IMG/VR virus record: IMGVR_UViG_3300032315_001715
Coordinates: 372,001-436,000 of that record
From: a virus
DNA: 64,000 bases
Reading direction: 5' to 3' (one strand)
Of this stretch, positions 3,788 to 64,000 are shown in pieces. The notes beneath the pieces are model-generated. The model was given only the letters and a program-made list of their open reading frames with translations, was not told where the DNA came from and did no database searches. Made by a program: the position numbers and the translations under genes. Every line of letters begins with the position of its first letter. Position 1 is the stretch's first letter.

Positions 3788-4429
3788 TCAGAAGCGGATG
3801 TTTAGGCCGCCGGTAACCATGTGTTGGTTGTAGGTTTCGCCGGCATTGAACGCACCAACATAGCGATAGCGAGCATCGAGATCAACGTTGCTTACGATAT
3901 TGAGCCGCACACCGCCGCCTACGTTATACAGGGCAAGATTGGAGCCGCTGTCACGCATGCCGAACGCATTACAGCACATTCCGCCGCCTGCTAGAACATA
4001 CGGAGTTACGGCAGTTTCACCCAACCTCTGGCTGGCAACAAGATTGCCCATTACCATCTGGCCATCGCCGCCGTTGTTCTGACGGTTGTAATCGTAAGTC
4101 AGCTCACCGGCTAGATTCCGATGGAACTGATAGCCAACCAACCCGCCGACCTGGTAGTCGGTAGAATCACGGAAATTGCTGCCGGCATTCATTCCGAGAT
4201 AAATTCTAGAGAGATTCATTCCGGTGCTAGCAGGGGCAGCAACGGTTGGCGTAACGGCAGCAGCGGTTGTTACCGGATCGGCTGCCGACGGACGAAGAAC
4301 TTCCAGCACCTGTGCGTTCAGTTGATCGGCAACATTGTCGTTGCTACGGCGTCGGGTTTGTGCATCAGCTGAGGTAGCGCTGACCGTGAGTATCAGGGCA
4401 AGTGTTGCCCCGATGACGTTCTTAATCAT
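3788..4429 (-). CDS. outer-membrane beta-barrel protein
   Basis: A 213-residue protein with a typical Sec signal peptide (hydrophobic core residues 5-18, cleavage after ADA), a 40-residue Ala/Thr/Pro-rich linker, then alternating hydrophobic/polar strands such as IYLGMNAGS, GGLVGYQF and GGGVRLNIV, ending in an aromatic residue (NIRF), the outer-membrane beta-barrel export signal. It resembles small 8-strand OmpA/OmpX-type barrels. Phage-encoded barrels of this kind (for example Lom) alter the host surface after infection. AAAGGAAC precedes the ATG, and the gene has its own terminator, so it forms a single-gene transcription unit. Confidence 0.8.
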   Translation of the reverse strand: MIKNVIGATLALILTVSATSADAQTRRRSNDNVADQLNAQVLEVLRPSAADPVTTAAAVTPTVAAPASTGMNLSRIYLGMNAGSNFRDSTDYQVGGLVGYQFHRNLAGELTYDYNRQNNGGDGQMVMGNLVASQRLGETAVTPYVLAGGGMCCNAFGMRDSGSNLALYNVGGGVRLNIVSNVDLDARYRYVGAFNAGETYNQHMVTGGLNIRF

Positions 4430-7463: not shown

Positions 7464-7626
7464 GATTAAGCCAATGTTGCTAGATTTGGTCCAATCGTGT
7501 CAAGATTTACGGATTATATGCAAACTGGACCTGCGGGAGTGAACCCCGCAGCACCACGCATCTTCGCGATCTTTTCGGTCTGTTCTCATGGAGAACGCCG
7601 GATCCTAACACTGATGCATCCAGTTA
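7464..7626 (-). other. intergenic stretch with an isolated tRNA T-arm-like hairpin
   Basis: At 7533-7549 the minus strand reads as a perfect T arm (GCGGG-GTTCACT-CCCGC) followed by AGGTCCA. No matching acceptor, D or anticodon arm was found upstream, so it is a tRNA remnant or minihelix. The same T-arm plus 4 nt plus CCA ending recurs inside the tRNA-Asn and tRNA-Lys inserts. Confidence 0.4.
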
Positions 7627-7656
7627 AGAAAGGGCGGTATTGCTACCGCCCTTTCT
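7627..7656 (-). terminator. terminator of the PspA operon
   Basis: A perfect 13-bp stem (AGAAAGGGCGGTA and complement) with a 4-nt loop, 27 nt after the last gene of the operon. The U-run is short. Confidence 0.75.
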
Positions 7657-7682
7657 GTCACGATGGTAAGCGCAAGCGTTGC

Positions 7683-8408
7683 TTACTTCTTGCCCTTGAG
7701 GGCAGCCAGCTTGTCCTGCAAGCTCGACGGCTTTGGACCATGATCAACCTCAGCCAGGGCAGCATTGATCGCCGCGTCGGCTTCAACCGCCTTGCCTAAC
7801 ACACCACTGCGGATGTTATCCGCTGCGGCCTTTTGGCGCGCTGCCGCAGCATTGGCACCCATGGCGTTGATGGCCACGTCTGCACCGCTCAGACCCTTGC
7901 TAAGGCCTGCCATGCGCTCGCGGTCTGCACGGCGCTGGTCGGCGATCTTGGCCTCCTGGAGCGCACGGGCCTGATCGCGCTTGGCCTGCTCGATCTTGGT
8001 GCGGCCTTCCATGACCAAGCGCTGGGCGTTTTCAGCCGCGGCGCGGGTCTCTGCGGCCCACAGCTCGGCATCCTGTGCTTCGGCCTCGGCACCTTCCACC
8101 TTGCTAGCCCATTCCAGCGCTTGGTCAGCGGCCTTGTTAGCCGCGGCGTCGTTCCCGGCACTGGCCAGCTTTTCGGCAGCAGCCGTGTAGCGATCGAGAT
8201 TATTGCGGATGTTAGCAACCGCATCGCGCGCGGTCTTGGCATCCTGTCCGGCCTTGGCAGCGTTGGTGGCCATCTCGCGGGCAGTGGCATCCCATTCGGC
8301 CAGCTGGGCTTCGCCCACGCTTTCTGGGTCCCACTTGGCAACCAGCTTGACGGCGCCGTCCTGCAGATCACGTACCTTGGTGGAAATGTAGTTGGTGATA
8401 AAGCTCAT
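7683..8408 (-). CDS. PspA/IM30-family membrane-stress protein
   Basis: A 241-residue, almost wholly helical Ala/Glu/Lys/Arg-rich coiled coil, the length and make-up of PspA/IM30 (ESCRT-III-like) proteins. An amphipathic N-terminus (SFITNYISTKVRDL) could bind membrane, and the C-terminal part (SGADVAINAMGANAAAARQKA) matches the typical PspA tail region. PspA polymers coat and stabilise stressed inner membranes. The identification is supported by the preceding DUF2491 gene: E. coli yjfJ (PspA family) and yjfK (DUF2491) are likewise adjacent. It is the third gene of a three-gene operon and is followed by a terminator. Such a module could protect the membrane during infection or block superinfection; that is inference. 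Confidence 0.75.
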   Translation of the reverse strand: MSFITNYISTKVRDLQDGAVKLVAKWDPESVGEAQLAEWDATAREMATNAAKAGQDAKTARDAVANIRNNLDRYTAAAEKLASAGNDAAANKAADQALEWASKVEGAEAEAQDAELWAAETRAAAENAQRLVMEGRTKIEQAKRDQARALQEAKIADQRRADRERMAGLSKGLSGADVAINAMGANAAAARQKAAADNIRSGVLGKAVEADAAINAALAEVDHGPKPSSLQDKLAALKGKK

Positions 8409-8444
8409 GTTTCTATCCTTTTAGAATGATTGGTTGAATTCGAA

Positions 8445-9191
8445 CTAACTTTGCAAGACCTTGAGGTTCTGATGGTCCAGAGGAATACCGATGAACAAGT
8501 TCACCGAAGCACCCTCCGAGTCCTGCACCATCGTTGCTAGCAGCGATTCCGTCACGGCGTCAGCCGCATCTGTCAAACTCCTGTGGTATTCCATTGCCTC
8601 GTGTTTCACCGTCGTGGTGTTTCCCTGTGCATCCAGGATGGTCTCGGTATATGCTACCGGTGCCACGCCGTCGGTACCTGGGCTCCACGCACGATTGTAC
8701 ATGATGGCCGGAGGTCCGTCAACCCGAAATTGTGGCCATCCAATCAATCCCCATTCCTTGCGCAGCGCTTGGCCAAGCTTGTCGCGCAGGAAATCTCCCT
8801 GTGCATCACGCTGCCAGCTGCCAAGCCAGAATTCCCAGTCCTCGGAAGACTGCGGAAGGATTTCGTCCCGGCTGCACCACAGCCGAGCCTCGGTGAGCTT
8901 CCCGCCCTTGGAAACCAACTGGATGTAGCTGCGTCCATCCCCGAGATAGCAGTTGAATATATCCAGGCCCCACTTGTGATAGGTGCCTACCGCGGTGATG
9001 ATCTGCTGTCCCGTGGGTGGATTGATCACTGACCCGTCGGCCTGTGCCAGCGCGATATCAATGTCCGGAAGATCCACCAACGATGCTTGGTGCAGACCCA
9101 GAGGTACCTTGTTGCGTGGCAGCGGCACAGGGTTGGGAACCTGTTCGGTTTTCTTGCGGGCCATGTGGCCCAGTATGGATAGAAGTCCCAT
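8445..9191 (-). CDS. DUF2491 (YjfK-like) protein
   Basis: A 248-residue protein. An N-terminal GLLSILG segment is followed by a beta-rich domain with WCSRDEILPQS, EWGLIGWPQFRVDGPP and MEYHRSL, as in the DUF2491/YjfK family. The family is soluble and is genetically tied to PspA-type proteins. The ATG at 9191 has AGGAG 10 nt upstream; a longer frame back to 9263 would run into the upstream gene and is not supported. It lies 19 nt after the membrane-anchored protein and 36 nt before PspA. Confidence 0.8.
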   Translation of the reverse strand: MGLLSILGHMARKKTEQVPNPVPLPRNKVPLGLHQASLVDLPDIDIALAQADGSVINPPTGQQIITAVGTYHKWGLDIFNCYLGDGRSYIQLVSKGGKLTEARLWCSRDEILPQSSEDWEFWLGSWQRDAQGDFLRDKLGQALRKEWGLIGWPQFRVDGPPAIMYNRAWSPGTDGVAPVAYTETILDAQGNTTTVKHEAMEYHRSLTDAADAVTESLLATMVQDSEGASVNLFIGIPLDHQNLKVLQS

Positions 9192-9210
9192 GATTTTATC
9201 TCCTGATGGA

Positions 9211-10320
9211 TCAACGCTTACGGATGATGAAGAACCAAGCGGCACCTGCCGCCGATAGTGCAACTACCAACCAGATGACCCAACCGAATCCACCAGAGGC
9301 AGGTGGCTTGGCACGGGCGGAGTCAACGGCCGCGGCATCCGCTTCAACGGCCTCGGGTGCGATGGCCAACGCTGCTGGCACGCCCGCGGGCAACGCTGAT
9401 ACTGCCTGGGCGGGCTGGTTGCCCTCGGAACGGATGCGAGCCATTTCTCGATCCATCTCGTCCACCCGGCGGCGTAGATCGGCGTTTTCCCGTGCCTGTT
9501 TTTCGAGATCCGCACGATATTGCGGATACCATGCTTGGTTGGTTTGACCGTTCATCCAGGTGGCCCGATCGTAAAGCCCGGTGCCAAGTGCTCCTAGGAA
9601 CATGCCGGTGAGGAAGTTGGTATCAAAGATGCCGTAGTTGGATCGCATGTTCTGCGTGGTTTGGAACACCTCGGGATTGCGGTCACGATAGTTGTAGTAG
9701 TGTTCACGTCGCTGCTCAACATATCGGGCAGGATCGCCACCATATGCCTGCCTGCTGGAGGTAAACACCGGGTCCTGTCGAACCTGCTGCGCAGCCACCG
9801 GCTGCGGTGGACTGGTAGCACGGCCTCGTTCAGCTTGGTAAGCACGGAGTGAATCCAGGCTTTGGCTACGCTGTTGGGCCTGTGCCACGGCGTTTGCTGG
9901 CGGTTGTTGCTGTGCTTGGGATTGACCGGCCGCTGCCGCACCAACCACCGCCGCACTGCCGGCACCGGCAGCCACCATCCCCGGGCGGTTGTATCCGTTG
10001 CTATTGGCAGCAACCGGGGGTGGTGCTGAGGTTGGACCGGATGGAGGTTGAACGGTGGCGGCCATGGGAGGCGGTGCCGCCGGCGGTCTAGAATAACCAC
10101 TGTTGCTTGCCGGAGCCGCTTGCGCAGGTGCAGGCGTGTTTGGTCGGGCATAGCTCGGTGCCGGAGCAGGTGTGCTCGGACGGGCATAGCTGGGACTTGG
10201 GGTTGACGGAGCAGGAGAGGAACTGCTGCCACGGCTATATTGCGCGTCCGCGGAAAATGAGCCAATTGATATGATCGTGGCTGCGGCTAGCGCCAAGATC
10301 CGACGATTAAACTGCAACAC
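9211..10320 (-). CDS. secreted, Pro/Ala-rich, C-terminally membrane-anchored protein
   Basis: A 369-residue protein. Residues 1-26 form a signal peptide (cleavage after ADA). It is followed by about 100 residues of low-complexity Pro/Ala/Ser (PSYARPSTPAPAPSYARP), a Tyr/Arg-rich segment, a Gly-rich hydrophobic stretch TGMFLGALGTGLYD, a coiled coil (ENADLRRRVDEMDREMARI), and a C-terminal membrane helix (WVIWLVVALSAAGAAWFFI) with an RKR stop-transfer. It is first in the operon with DUF2491 and PspA, so it may be the periplasmic sensor or anchor that recruits them. No family is recognised; low complexity limits homology calls. Confidence 0.7.
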   Translation of the reverse strand: MLQFNRRILALAAATIISIGSFSADAQYSRGSSSSPAPSTPSPSYARPSTPAPAPSYARPNTPAPAQAAPASNSGYSRPPAAPPPMAATVQPPSGPTSAPPPVAANSNGYNRPGMVAAGAGSAAVVGAAAAGQSQAQQQPPANAVAQAQQRSQSLDSLRAYQAERGRATSPPQPVAAQQVRQDPVFTSSRQAYGGDPARYVEQRREHYYNYRDRNPEVFQTTQNMRSNYGIFDTNFLTGMFLGALGTGLYDRATWMNGQTNQAWYPQYRADLEKQARENADLRRRVDEMDREMARIRSEGNQPAQAVSALPAGVPAALAIAPEAVEADAAAVDSARAKPPASGGFGWVIWLVVALSAAGAAWFFIIRKR

Positions 10321-10380
10321 GATTCTCCTAGTGGGTTACAGGCGGATTACACGCTGATTTTAGCACATAACGACACAAGG

Positions 10381-10980
10381 TCAACCTTGATCAGGTGTGC
10401 TTTCGTGGTAGATCGTGCTGATGGTCCACCCGGTGCCGGAATCGGTGGGAGGCCTGCATGCCATCGGAACGCCGTGTGCGGTTCGGATGTTTGGTTCTAG
10501 ATGCATCGCTAGCCTAATTGCTCGAAACCAAGCACCGTGCCCGACTATCAAGGGCATGCCGTTGTGATCATCCCTGCTTGTTGCACGATTGACCGCGGCT
10601 ACGGCCCTAGCCAGCAGGGATGCAAATGGTTCGGCATTTAATGGAATATGTTCCCCGGCAATCCATTGGTTATACCAACCGCCGGCAGGCTTGCCTTCCT
10701 CGACGCCAAAGTCAACCTCTTGCAGGTCCAAATCAATGCTAACCGGAAGATTGAGGTTTTTACCAACCACTTCGGCCGTCGCCAATGCTCGGCCGATCGG
10801 GCTCGCAAAGATGCATGACACCCTGGCGGTCTTGAGAACCATGGCAGCATGCAAGGCCTGCATCTCACCTCGATCGGACATTGGAACCTCGGTTCGACCC
10901 TGGGCAAGACCCAGGACGTTCCATGAGGTTTCACCGTGCCTGAGAAAAATGAATGGTCTAGGATTTAGCTGCTGATGCAT
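10381..10980 (-). CDS. histidine phosphatase (phosphoglycerate-mutase-like)
   Basis: A 199-residue protein. The catalytic RHGETSWN motif is at residues 14-21, a second Arg/Ser site lies in FASPIGRALATAE, and the second catalytic His is in IVGHGAWFRA. Members remove phosphate from metabolites or phosphoproteins via phosphohistidine; the substrate cannot be predicted. It stands alone between the PspA operon and the first tRNAs. Confidence 0.85.
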   Translation of the reverse strand: MHQQLNPRPFIFLRHGETSWNVLGLAQGRTEVPMSDRGEMQALHAAMVLKTARVSCIFASPIGRALATAEVVGKNLNLPVSIDLDLQEVDFGVEEGKPAGGWYNQWIAGEHIPLNAEPFASLLARAVAAVNRATSRDDHNGMPLIVGHGAWFRAIRLAMHLEPNIRTAHGVPMACRPPTDSGTGWTISTIYHESTPDQG

Positions 10981-27874: not shown

Positions 27875-28642
27875 TTATAGGAGGCTTATCAGTGTATTAA
27901 TACCCTCAACGGCCGTGTGCGACATGCTAACATCATGTCTACGATTGACCTTGCTCTCATATGGATTGATCCGTATCAACGTTGACGTCCGTTCTTCGGC
28001 GATGTAACGTATGGATGGTATCACCGTGCCGGCACCTATCTCAATACCCAGCACGCTCATCCTGGGTTCCATCCATCTGCGGAAACGATCCTCTCCGAGA
28101 TCTATGTTGGTCCAAACCATGCTTGGATCGCTAAACATCAGAACGTTGGGCCTCAAGGACTGCTGGCACCGAGCGCACCTAGGGATCTCATCGATCGATG
28201 ACAGGGTTGCAGTAAATCTTGGCATCGGTTGCAGTTGTCTCGTGCATGGCTGCTTGCATTGTGCATGCCGTAGATCGCCGTGTATCTCGTAAATGCGAGC
28301 AGGATCATATCCGGCCATGTGGAAATGCCCGTCAACATTGCTGGTCACCACGAAATAATCCTTGCCATGCTGGTTCACGGCATCGAGCAACCTGGTGTAA
28401 CCAGCATGGGGTTTGGTGTGACCATAGGCCAGCATGCGGCTTATGTAAAAATTCCAGGAGGCCAATGGATCGTCGTCAAATCCCCTAGCGGTTGCCAGGG
28501 ATATGAAATCCTCCTTGGCCTTGGTCCACATGCCATTGCTTCCACGGAAATCAGGCAATCCGCTATCAACGCTCATTCCGGCTCCGGCAAGTATGAGGAT
28601 ACCATCTGCTGAATGGAACAAGCTTGAAATGTAATCTTGCAT
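27875..28642 (-). CDS. Sir2-family NAD-dependent deacylase (sirtuin)
   Basis: A 255-residue protein. GAGMSVDSGLPDFRG (residues about 20-34) is the Sir2 NAD-binding signature; VTSNVDGHFH and YEIHGDLRH follow, the latter with the catalytic His. A zinc site is formed by CKQPC and CARC. Sirtuins remove acyl groups from lysine using NAD; some Sir2-domain proteins are NADases in phage defence, but this one has the compact deacylase layout. AAAGGTCGAG precedes the ATG. It is flanked by two related tRNAs. It could reverse host acylation or take part in NAD metabolism with the macrodomain and Nudix proteins. Confidence 0.88.
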   Translation of the reverse strand: MQDYISSLFHSADGILILAGAGMSVDSGLPDFRGSNGMWTKAKEDFISLATARGFDDDPLASWNFYISRMLAYGHTKPHAGYTRLLDAVNQHGKDYFVVTSNVDGHFHMAGYDPARIYEIHGDLRHAQCKQPCTRQLQPMPRFTATLSSIDEIPRCARCQQSLRPNVLMFSDPSMVWTNIDLGEDRFRRWMEPRMSVLGIEIGAGTVIPSIRYIAEERTSTLIRINPYESKVNRRHDVSMSHTAVEGINTLISLL

Positions 28643-45490: not shown

Positions 45491-46846
45491 ATGAGCATTT
45501 ACAACTATCCTGTCACTGGATTACCTGGTCCAACTGGTATCACGGGTGCGATCGGTCCAACCGGAAATACCGGACCAACCGGAAATACTGGACCAAGTGG
45601 CATCAGCTTCACCGGGCCTACCGGTGCAACTGGCGCCGATTCCACGATAACCGGGCCTACCGGTGCAACCGGTGATTCTTTCACCGGACCAACCGGCGCG
45701 ACCGGATCTGATTCAATGGTAACCGGTCCTACCGGCGCGACGGTTACTGGTCCCACGGGAGAACGCGGTCCAACCGGTGCGACCGGCCGAGCTAGCACGG
45801 TTGCTGGTCCCAGCGGTCCGACCGGACAGCGAGGTTTCACCGGCCCGATCGGGCTGCGTGGTGCAACAGGTCCGTCGGGCGTAACGGGTTCGACCGGACC
45901 ATTTGGTGAGGGCAGCACGGGTCCGCAGGGTGAGGTTGGTCCAGAAGGACCGACGGGTCCCAGCGGTGCAGGCAGCACGGGACCTTCGGGTGCCACCGGA
46001 CCAGCTGGGGGTCCTACTGGATCCCCAGGATCGACCGGTACTACCGGACCGACAGGTCGAGCAGGTACCAGTTTCACCGGTCCAACAGGTTCACAGGGCA
46101 CCATTGGAGCACAGGGACCAACCGGTGCGACCGGTGCCCAGGGAGTGCAGGGCCTGACCGGGTCACCATCGACCACACCAGGACCAACCGGTCCGCAAGG
46201 ATCGCAGGGCAATGCCGGTGCAACAGGACCAACTGGGGCAAGTGGTGCTACTGGTCCGCAGGGATTGATCGGAAATACCGGTCCACAGGGTGTGCAAGGC
46301 CCACAGGGCAATGTTGGTGCCACGGGCGCTATCGGTACAACAGGTGCCACGGGCGCTACCGGTACAACCGGACCGCAGGGTGTGCAGGGGTCACAAGGCA
46401 ATCTAGGATCAACCGGGACCACGGGTGCTACCGGTGCTACCGGTGCTACCGGCCCAACAGGGCTGCTAGGATCAACAGGTCCACGGGGGTCACAGGGTAA
46501 TCTAGGTGCCACTGGATCAACCGGATCGACCGGGCCAACCGGCGTGTCAAGCTATCCAACATCTAGATCCCAGGTAACCACATCGACATGGAATGCGGTG
46601 ATCACCGATCAATACCTCGGCGTGACCTACTCTGGTAACGTAACCATTAATCTTCCCACGGGAGTTGATCAAAAGGGATTGATAATCAAGGATGAAAACG
46701 GGTCTGCTAACAGCAATCCCATCACCTTGGTGCCGAACGGTTCCCAGACCATTGACGGTCAATCGTCGGTCAGCATTAACAACAGCCACGGTGCCGCAAC
46801 GTTATGGTTCCACAGCGGTGTTTGGCATGTGATAAGCAAGGCATGA
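45491..46846 (+). CDS. collagen-like tail fibre protein
   Basis: 451 residues. Residues about 10-355 are Gly-X-Y triplets, mostly [10 protein letters not shown], with a few breaks; residues about 360-451 form a globular tip ([23 protein letters not shown]). Collagen-like phage proteins trimerise and extend fibres. The repeats create long spurious antisense frames. The ribosome site is weak; a late box lies about 28 nt upstream. Confidence 0.85.
45530..46540. repeat. Gly-X-Y coding repeats
   Basis: Degenerate 9- to 18-bp units rich in accggtcc/ggtgc. Prone to slippage and recombination with similar repeats in the giant fibre at 59.4 kb. Confidence 0.8.

Positions 46847-57872: not shown

Positions 57873-64000
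<6,128 letters not shown>

Follow-up and report, generated by a model that had tools for sequence, protein, structure and literature searches.

The phage shock protein response takes its name from membrane damage caused by phages. Several relatives of the genes described here are already known: bacterial Yjf/PSP operons, ligase genes of phages, and a phage pspA-like gene beside terD (PMC12363816). PMC11237479 reports a bacterial operon (its third group, with the CesT/Tir-PspA dyad) in which genes for PspA, CesT/Tir, ATP-grasp, DUF350, DUF1190, and DUF2491 proteins occur together. The Escherichia coli K-12 genes for comparison are yjfI-J-K-L-M-C. YjfC is annotated as a peptide-spermidine ligase, and PMC12568646 cites Pederick 2023 as the primary work on this activity. 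PspA and Vipp1 work in membrane maintenance (PMC8281802, PMC12358876). For the operons on plasmid pAB510d of Azospirillum sp. B510 and on a plasmid of Bosea sp. RAC05, the annotation goes no further than 'DUF2491 family protein', 'DUF350', and 'hypothetical protein'.

On the phage side, glutathionylspermidine synthase genes of the same ligase family as ours occur in T4-like Aeromonas, Acinetobacter, and Pseudomonas phages and in Motura and Phosso (PHROG 6215), and in several of them DUF1190 or DUF350 adjoins the ligase. Unlike the phage studied here, these ligase-bearing records gave no tblastn match to DUF2491 or to the PspA-like protein. The Jug gut phages (PMC12363816) resemble our phage in being huge and in having a PspA-like gene in an operon. 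However, they are phages of Bacteroides/Phocaeicola, the neighbour is terD, and the available text does not name the anchor, DUF2491, or the ligase; the likeness is one of description. Within the partial coverage of our literature search, nothing on phage PspA or ESCRT-III-like proteins was closer than the Jug phages, DUF2491 was named only in PMC11237479, and no phage was reported to have DUF2491, this anchor, or a near-complete Yjf set. The anchor-DUF2491 cassette and the near-complete Yjf set in phages therefore appear to be new.

The window that we analysed is a stretch of 64 kb, positions 372,001-436,000 of an IMG/VR record of 452,799 bases (452.8 kb). Because it contains tRNA genes, a clamp loader, a DNA polymerase exonuclease subunit, and virion structural and tail-fibre genes, we conclude that the source is a jumbo tailed phage. 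The 40 tRNA genes predicted in the window cover most amino acids, and several are duplicated. One virion protein has its best relatives in T4-like cyanophages (about 41% identity), and the nearest relative of the phage's ligase gene among named phages is in Sinorhizobium phage Phosso (469 kb; 45%). The features of the cassette and its surroundings are:

10357..10384, minus strand: promoter-like site (TTGACC-16-TAAAAT with an extended TG; 10/12 matches in a consensus scan), just upstream of the anchor gene

9211..10320, minus strand: exported anchor protein, 369 amino acids, GTG start; signal-like N-terminus, Pro/Ser-rich linker, conserved segment, C-terminal transmembrane segment

8445..9191, minus strand: DUF2491 (YjfK-like) protein, 248 amino acids (PF10679); beta-rich, without a signal peptide, predicted to be cytoplasmic

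7683..8408, minus strand: putative PspA/ESCRT-III-like helical protein, Ala-rich, 241 amino acids (by AlphaFold2 and Foldseek, with remote profile matches)

7626..7656, minus strand: hairpin resembling a Rho-independent terminator (13-bp stem, GCAA loop, weak T-run), 3' of the last gene

The three genes run from 10320 to 7683 on the minus strand (G000:379683-382320 in record coordinates), in the order anchor, DUF2491, PspA-like, with gaps of just 19 and 36 bp and a Shine-Dalgarno-like site (AGGAG(A)/AAGGA) before each gene. We consider these reading frames to be genes, not chance, because their homologues in other phages are 40-75% identical, because of the dN/dS ratio of the PspA-like gene, and because the cassette is repeated. 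The initial annotation of this DNA had proposed a three-gene operon here that is closed by a terminator, and both the genes and the hairpin proved to be real. The RNA of 7605-7665 folds with -26.3 kcal/mol (z = -5.35), and 0 of 200 shuffles were equally good. The hairpin is missing from the list of the consensus terminator scan because its T-run is short. The promoter-like site is weak evidence, as two sites of that quality were found in the window and 1.4 were expected.

The intact cassette is also found on two further IMG/VR phage contigs (L101:6243-8720 and L096:6439-8720), where it stands beside phage-type genes; L101 also has homologues of other genes in the window. That the second gene encodes a DUF2491 protein, as the initial annotation stated, is certain from its match to PF10679 (E = 1.5e-20, 73.7 bits against a cut-off of 25, positions 11-209 of 210). 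The copies in L101 and L096, which are 50% and 40% identical to it, are above the Pfam cut-off as well. The AlphaFold2 model of this protein has a pLDDT of 87.4 and a pTM of 0.81, and a search of its fold against the PDB gave no credible solved relative.

The first gene had been described as a signal-peptide, Pro-rich, C-terminally anchored protein, and all three features can be read in the 369 amino acids. The conserved segment has the pattern FGxxDxxFL...WYxxYRADLExQAxxNADLR, and the C-terminal hydrophobic segment is followed by RKR. Given these basic residues after the hydrophobic segment, DUF2491 would be on the cytoplasmic side. The gene at the equivalent place in L101 is homologous (41.6% identity over 178 amino acids, E = 7e-44). 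The counterpart in L096 is shorter and has lost the conserved middle segment, unlike the window and L101 copies.

In the closest bacterial relatives, the anchor and DUF2491 are parts of one protein. On the Bosea and Azospirillum plasmids, the DUF2491 relative is a longer protein whose gene shares an operon with DUF350 and the 'hypothetical protein', which is homologous to the phage's PspA-like protein. A genome scan gave 66 bacterial loci. The order (anchor-)DUF2491, DUF350, PspA-like protein was found in 63 of the 66; the DUF2491 protein has an N-terminal extension of over 120 amino acids in 59, with a recognisable match to the anchor in 54. Since the N-terminal half of the bacterial protein resembles the phage anchor (E = 5e-9 for the alphaproteobacterial fusions), the separate anchor and DUF2491 proteins of the phage correspond to a single chain in bacteria. 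The fusion is found in alphaproteobacteria and Chromatiaceae, and this kinship of the cassette suggests that the phage has its host among the Alphaproteobacteria or purple sulphur bacteria.

Each of the three modules of the alphaproteobacterial/Chromatiaceae operon is homologous to that of the phage, and the gene order is the same except for DUF350. The differences are that the phage has the anchor and DUF2491 as separate genes, that its DUF350 gene is grouped with DUF1190 and the ligase at a distance of 67 kb, and that identity between the PspA-like proteins reaches only about 30%. The initial annotation had compared the locus to bacterial yjfJ-yjfK operons. The comparison is right, as the E. 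coli operon shows, but the closest relative is the operon of the anchor-DUF2491 fusion, DUF350, and the coiled-coil protein. Together, the phage and bacterial forms define a conserved anchored-DUF2491/PspA-like module whose parts are annotated merely as hypothetical proteins or DUFs.

The 'PspA' label of the last gene is not visible in the protein itself, for which Pfam, PHROGs, and NCBIfam gave nothing significant, so assigning it needed the fold and the relatives. In the AlphaFold2 model (built with 52 sequences), a helix (3-24) and a break at WDP precede a long hairpin (33-83/87-208) and short C-terminal helices (212-222 and 230-240). The mean pLDDT is 73.6, with most of the hairpin at 85-97 and low values for residues 1-26 and the C-terminus. 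Structure prediction had been suggested as a check for the ESCRT-III fold, and the model does have the long alpha1/alpha2-3 helical hairpin of that superfamily. When the model was compared to the PDB with Foldseek, places 1-9 were all Vipp1 or PspA (E = 9e-3 to 7e-2, probability 0.99-1.00), with Snf7 cores lower in the list; 4whe superimposes with an rmsd of 1.7 over 104 columns. A library of viral structures gave nothing at E below 0.01. Hallmarks of the superfamily other than the hairpin are an amphipathic N-terminal helix with a D-P break behind it and polymers that remodel or protect membranes. The WDP (26-28) after the first helix is kept in every phage and bacterial member. This helix has a hydrophobic moment of 0.38, and 4% of shuffles are as high; it lies in a low-confidence region of the model, and the moment is weaker in L101 and Azospirillum.

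By sequence, the link to PspA is more remote. The window protein had no match to PspA_IM30 (PF04012) at E <= 10 in the genome-wide profile search. Compared to this profile, it aligns to positions 23-217 of 220 with E = 4.7, in register with the matches of its phage relatives; D27 would fall on profile position 23, judging from the ends of the match. Two phage relatives match PspA_IM30 along its full length (E = 3.2e-6 and 1.7e-4), with 27.4 and 21.7 bits where 33.9 are needed, and 0 of 8 shuffles of one of these relatives match. Thus, the window protein and both relatives stay below the gathering score. E. coli PspA and YjfJ score like shuffles against the PspA-like set, and profile-profile comparison of this set to E. 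coli PspA, YjfJ, and a Rhizobium PspA was weak (probability 8%). We conclude that the last gene encodes a protein with a predicted, remote PspA/ESCRT-III-type fold and that it is not a formal member of PF04012. The family assignment in the initial annotation holds for the fold, but not by the Pfam cut-off or by likeness to E. coli PspA and YjfJ.

The phage and bacterial helical proteins are homologous to each other. The window protein scores 62 bits against a profile built from bacterial sequences only, whereas 2,400 shuffled and block-shuffled copies of two phage PspA-like proteins reached at most 1.6 bits. Judging from these sequence comparisons, the homology is not a coiled-coil artefact. 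We also considered that the protein might be an ordinary coiled coil, and rejected this, as shuffled and block-shuffled copies lose the match to the bacterial profile and shuffles also lose the match to PspA_IM30. Instead of an unrelated coiled coil and three families with no link elsewhere, we found a fold that fits and families that are linked in bacterial loci and on other phage contigs, as the initial annotation had expected.

The initial annotation overlooked the remaining Yjf genes, which are 67 kb away in the same phage. These and the polyamine genes of the phage are:

G000:310174-312386 (L075:10174-12386), minus strand: DUF350, DUF1190 lipoprotein, and GSP_synth ATP-grasp ligase, compact and in yjfL-yjfM-yjfC order; outside the window, and also present in a clade of related IMG/VR phages

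G000:350931-351245, plus strand: AdoMet_dc/SpeD-family gene

G000:303169-303501, plus strand: AdoMet_dc/SpeD-family gene

G000:90076-90372, minus strand: AdoMet_dc/SpeD-family gene

The matches are strong for DUF350 (E = 2.5e-31), the DUF1190 lipoprotein (5.1e-19), and the ligase (1.5e-137). So DUF2491, DUF350, DUF1190, and the ATP-grasp ligase of the Yjf operon are all present in the phage genome, but not in one contiguous operon. Relative to E. coli, the phage has homologues of YjfK, L, M, and C, with the L-M-C order kept, and the PspA-like protein in place of YjfJ, from which it is too remote for a link by sequence. Conversely, the set is split over two loci, the exported anchor is added, and YjfI is missing: a search of the phage genome for the CesT/Tir partner (DUF2170, PF09938) gave nothing at E <= 1. 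Searches of the genome for a band-7 tether and for a spermidine synthase found neither. Of the SpeD copies, the one at 350931-351245 shows the usual ESH motif, and the one at 303169 has ETSN at this place, so the latter may be inactive or changed in function. Near the ligase group are a UV endonuclease (UvdE, L075:7634-8662) and a weak match to a VWA domain (L075:15972-16736).

The two gene groups differ in their distribution. The ligase family is widespread, with 137 phage records; 13 related IMG/VR loci have the ligase with DUF1190, and 10 of the 13 have DUF350 as well. One of these records, L077, has an identical ligase (100%) and is probably the same phage as the source. In a third phage lineage (L095, L097-L100, and L102), the PspA-like gene is without anchor- or DUF2491-type neighbours, and a 328.6-kb phage of this lineage carries the ligase too. 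A set of 17 related phage records, many being fragments but one the complete Phosso genome, yielded no DUF2491. A tblastn search of 50,697 phage records with the DUF2491 and PspA-like proteins of the window and the DUF2491 protein of L101 gave no match, and the sole matches of E. coli YjfJ were two Salmonella records, about 500 kb in size, which are not jumbo phages by their record names. Scans of viral contigs with a single protein or a bacterial-led alignment found no relatives, whereas a phage-only alignment did; a neighbouring phosphatase was unsuccessful as a marker for synteny. The phage copies of the PspA-like protein form a single clade (support 100/100) that is far from the bacterial ones. 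The dN/dS of this gene is about 0.12-0.23, which indicates purifying selection, with synonymous sites near saturation.

We lean towards the view that the cassette is the phage counterpart of a bacterial envelope module of the PSP/Yjf type, which would keep the inner membrane of the host sealed and energised during a long infection. The anchor would be held in the inner membrane, its Pro/Ser-rich part lying in the periplasm, and DUF2491 would dock at the cytoplasmic side of the anchor, as the fusion predicts. The PspA-like protein might form a polymer on the cytoplasmic face of the inner membrane that the two jointly tether or regulate. The same pathway may involve the DUF350 membrane protein, the spermidine-conjugating ligase, and the lipoprotein that goes with it; as 67 kb separate the two gene groups, their joint action is deduced from bacteria. 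The net effect would be a host membrane that stays intact through jumbo-phage infection. This reading is favoured by the Rosetta-stone fusion in bacteria, the homology of the anchor and the PspA-like protein to their bacterial counterparts, the role of PspA and Vipp1 in membrane maintenance, the predicted PspA fold, the colinear PspA_IM30 matches of the phage relatives, the YjfL-M-C group in this genome and in related phages, the repeated cassette, and the single clade under purifying selection. Against it we count the Foldseek E of only 9e-3, the weak ends of the model, the profile-profile probability of 8%, the absence of YjfI/CesT-Tir, the lineage that has only the PspA-like gene, and the 17 related records without DUF2491. 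More tentatively, this lineage of jumbo phages might have a self-sufficient envelope system, in which an ESCRT-III-like polymer, its own anchor, and a DUF2491 adaptor, with the ligase, lipoprotein, and DUF350, replace the host's upkeep of the inner membrane.

Other functions would account for part of the data. The cassette might guard against abortive-infection effectors that depolarise the membrane or form pores, or against superinfecting phages, instead of supporting normal growth. PspA is part of a membrane-damage response, the anchor puts the complex in the envelope, and the cassette is patchy across related phages, like accessory genes related to defence. We nevertheless consider this unlikely: in a search without the padloc library, the cassette did not appear alongside known genes of defence or anti-defence, and the bacterial orthologues are in ordinary operons, not in obvious defence islands. 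We are somewhat more doubtful that the core of the system is the ATP-grasp ligase, joining spermidine to a peptide or protein, with the cassette genes as auxiliary sensors or carriers. The ligase match itself (GSP_synth, E = 1.5e-137, with DUF1190 directly upstream), the three SpeD-family genes, the activity of E. coli YjfC (by its annotation and the work cited above), and the precedent of working polyamine enzymes encoded by viruses (PMC9992855) would fit. However, the bacterial relatives of the cassette had no ligase or DUF1190 in the flanks examined, the phage is without a spermidine synthase, and its two gene groups are far apart.

We also considered that the Ala-rich helical protein might be a scaffold, a shell, or the lining of a compartment, with its likeness to PspA limited to a long helical hairpin. 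Phages have many coiled-coil structural proteins, one lineage has the gene without DUF2491, and confidence in the model is partial. Yet the nearest relatives are proteins of bacterial operons and not of virions, the top solved folds are specifically Vipp1 and PspA, and the viral structure library had no match at E below 0.01, which makes a structural role very improbable. Finally, as every part has a bacterial counterpart, the genes might have been picked up from a host by chance and be without function in the phage. We strongly disfavour this because the phage copies form one clade far from the bacterial ones, are under purifying selection, and keep their order in three phages.

If the membrane-upkeep proposal is true, a phage with its own PspA-like protein and a dedicated anchor implies that a large lytic phage must secure the upkeep of the membrane itself. 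The fusion in bacteria predicts directly which parts are in contact, and this can be tested. Our proposal would also tie the polyamine genes of phages, which have long been known without a context, to an envelope system.

The window has a second envelope gene 3 kb from the cassette (3788-4429, minus strand), which encodes an OmpA-like outer-membrane beta-barrel protein with a signal peptide (OMP_b-brl, E = 2.9e-11). It also encodes a Sir2-family NAD-dependent deacetylase (27875-28642, minus strand; PHROG, E = 3.4e-40) and two proteins with collagen-like Gly-X-Y repeats (45491-46846, plus strand, and 57873-63956, minus strand). One of the collagen-like proteins is a tail-fibre protein of 2027 amino acids with a chaperone-like region at its C-terminus.
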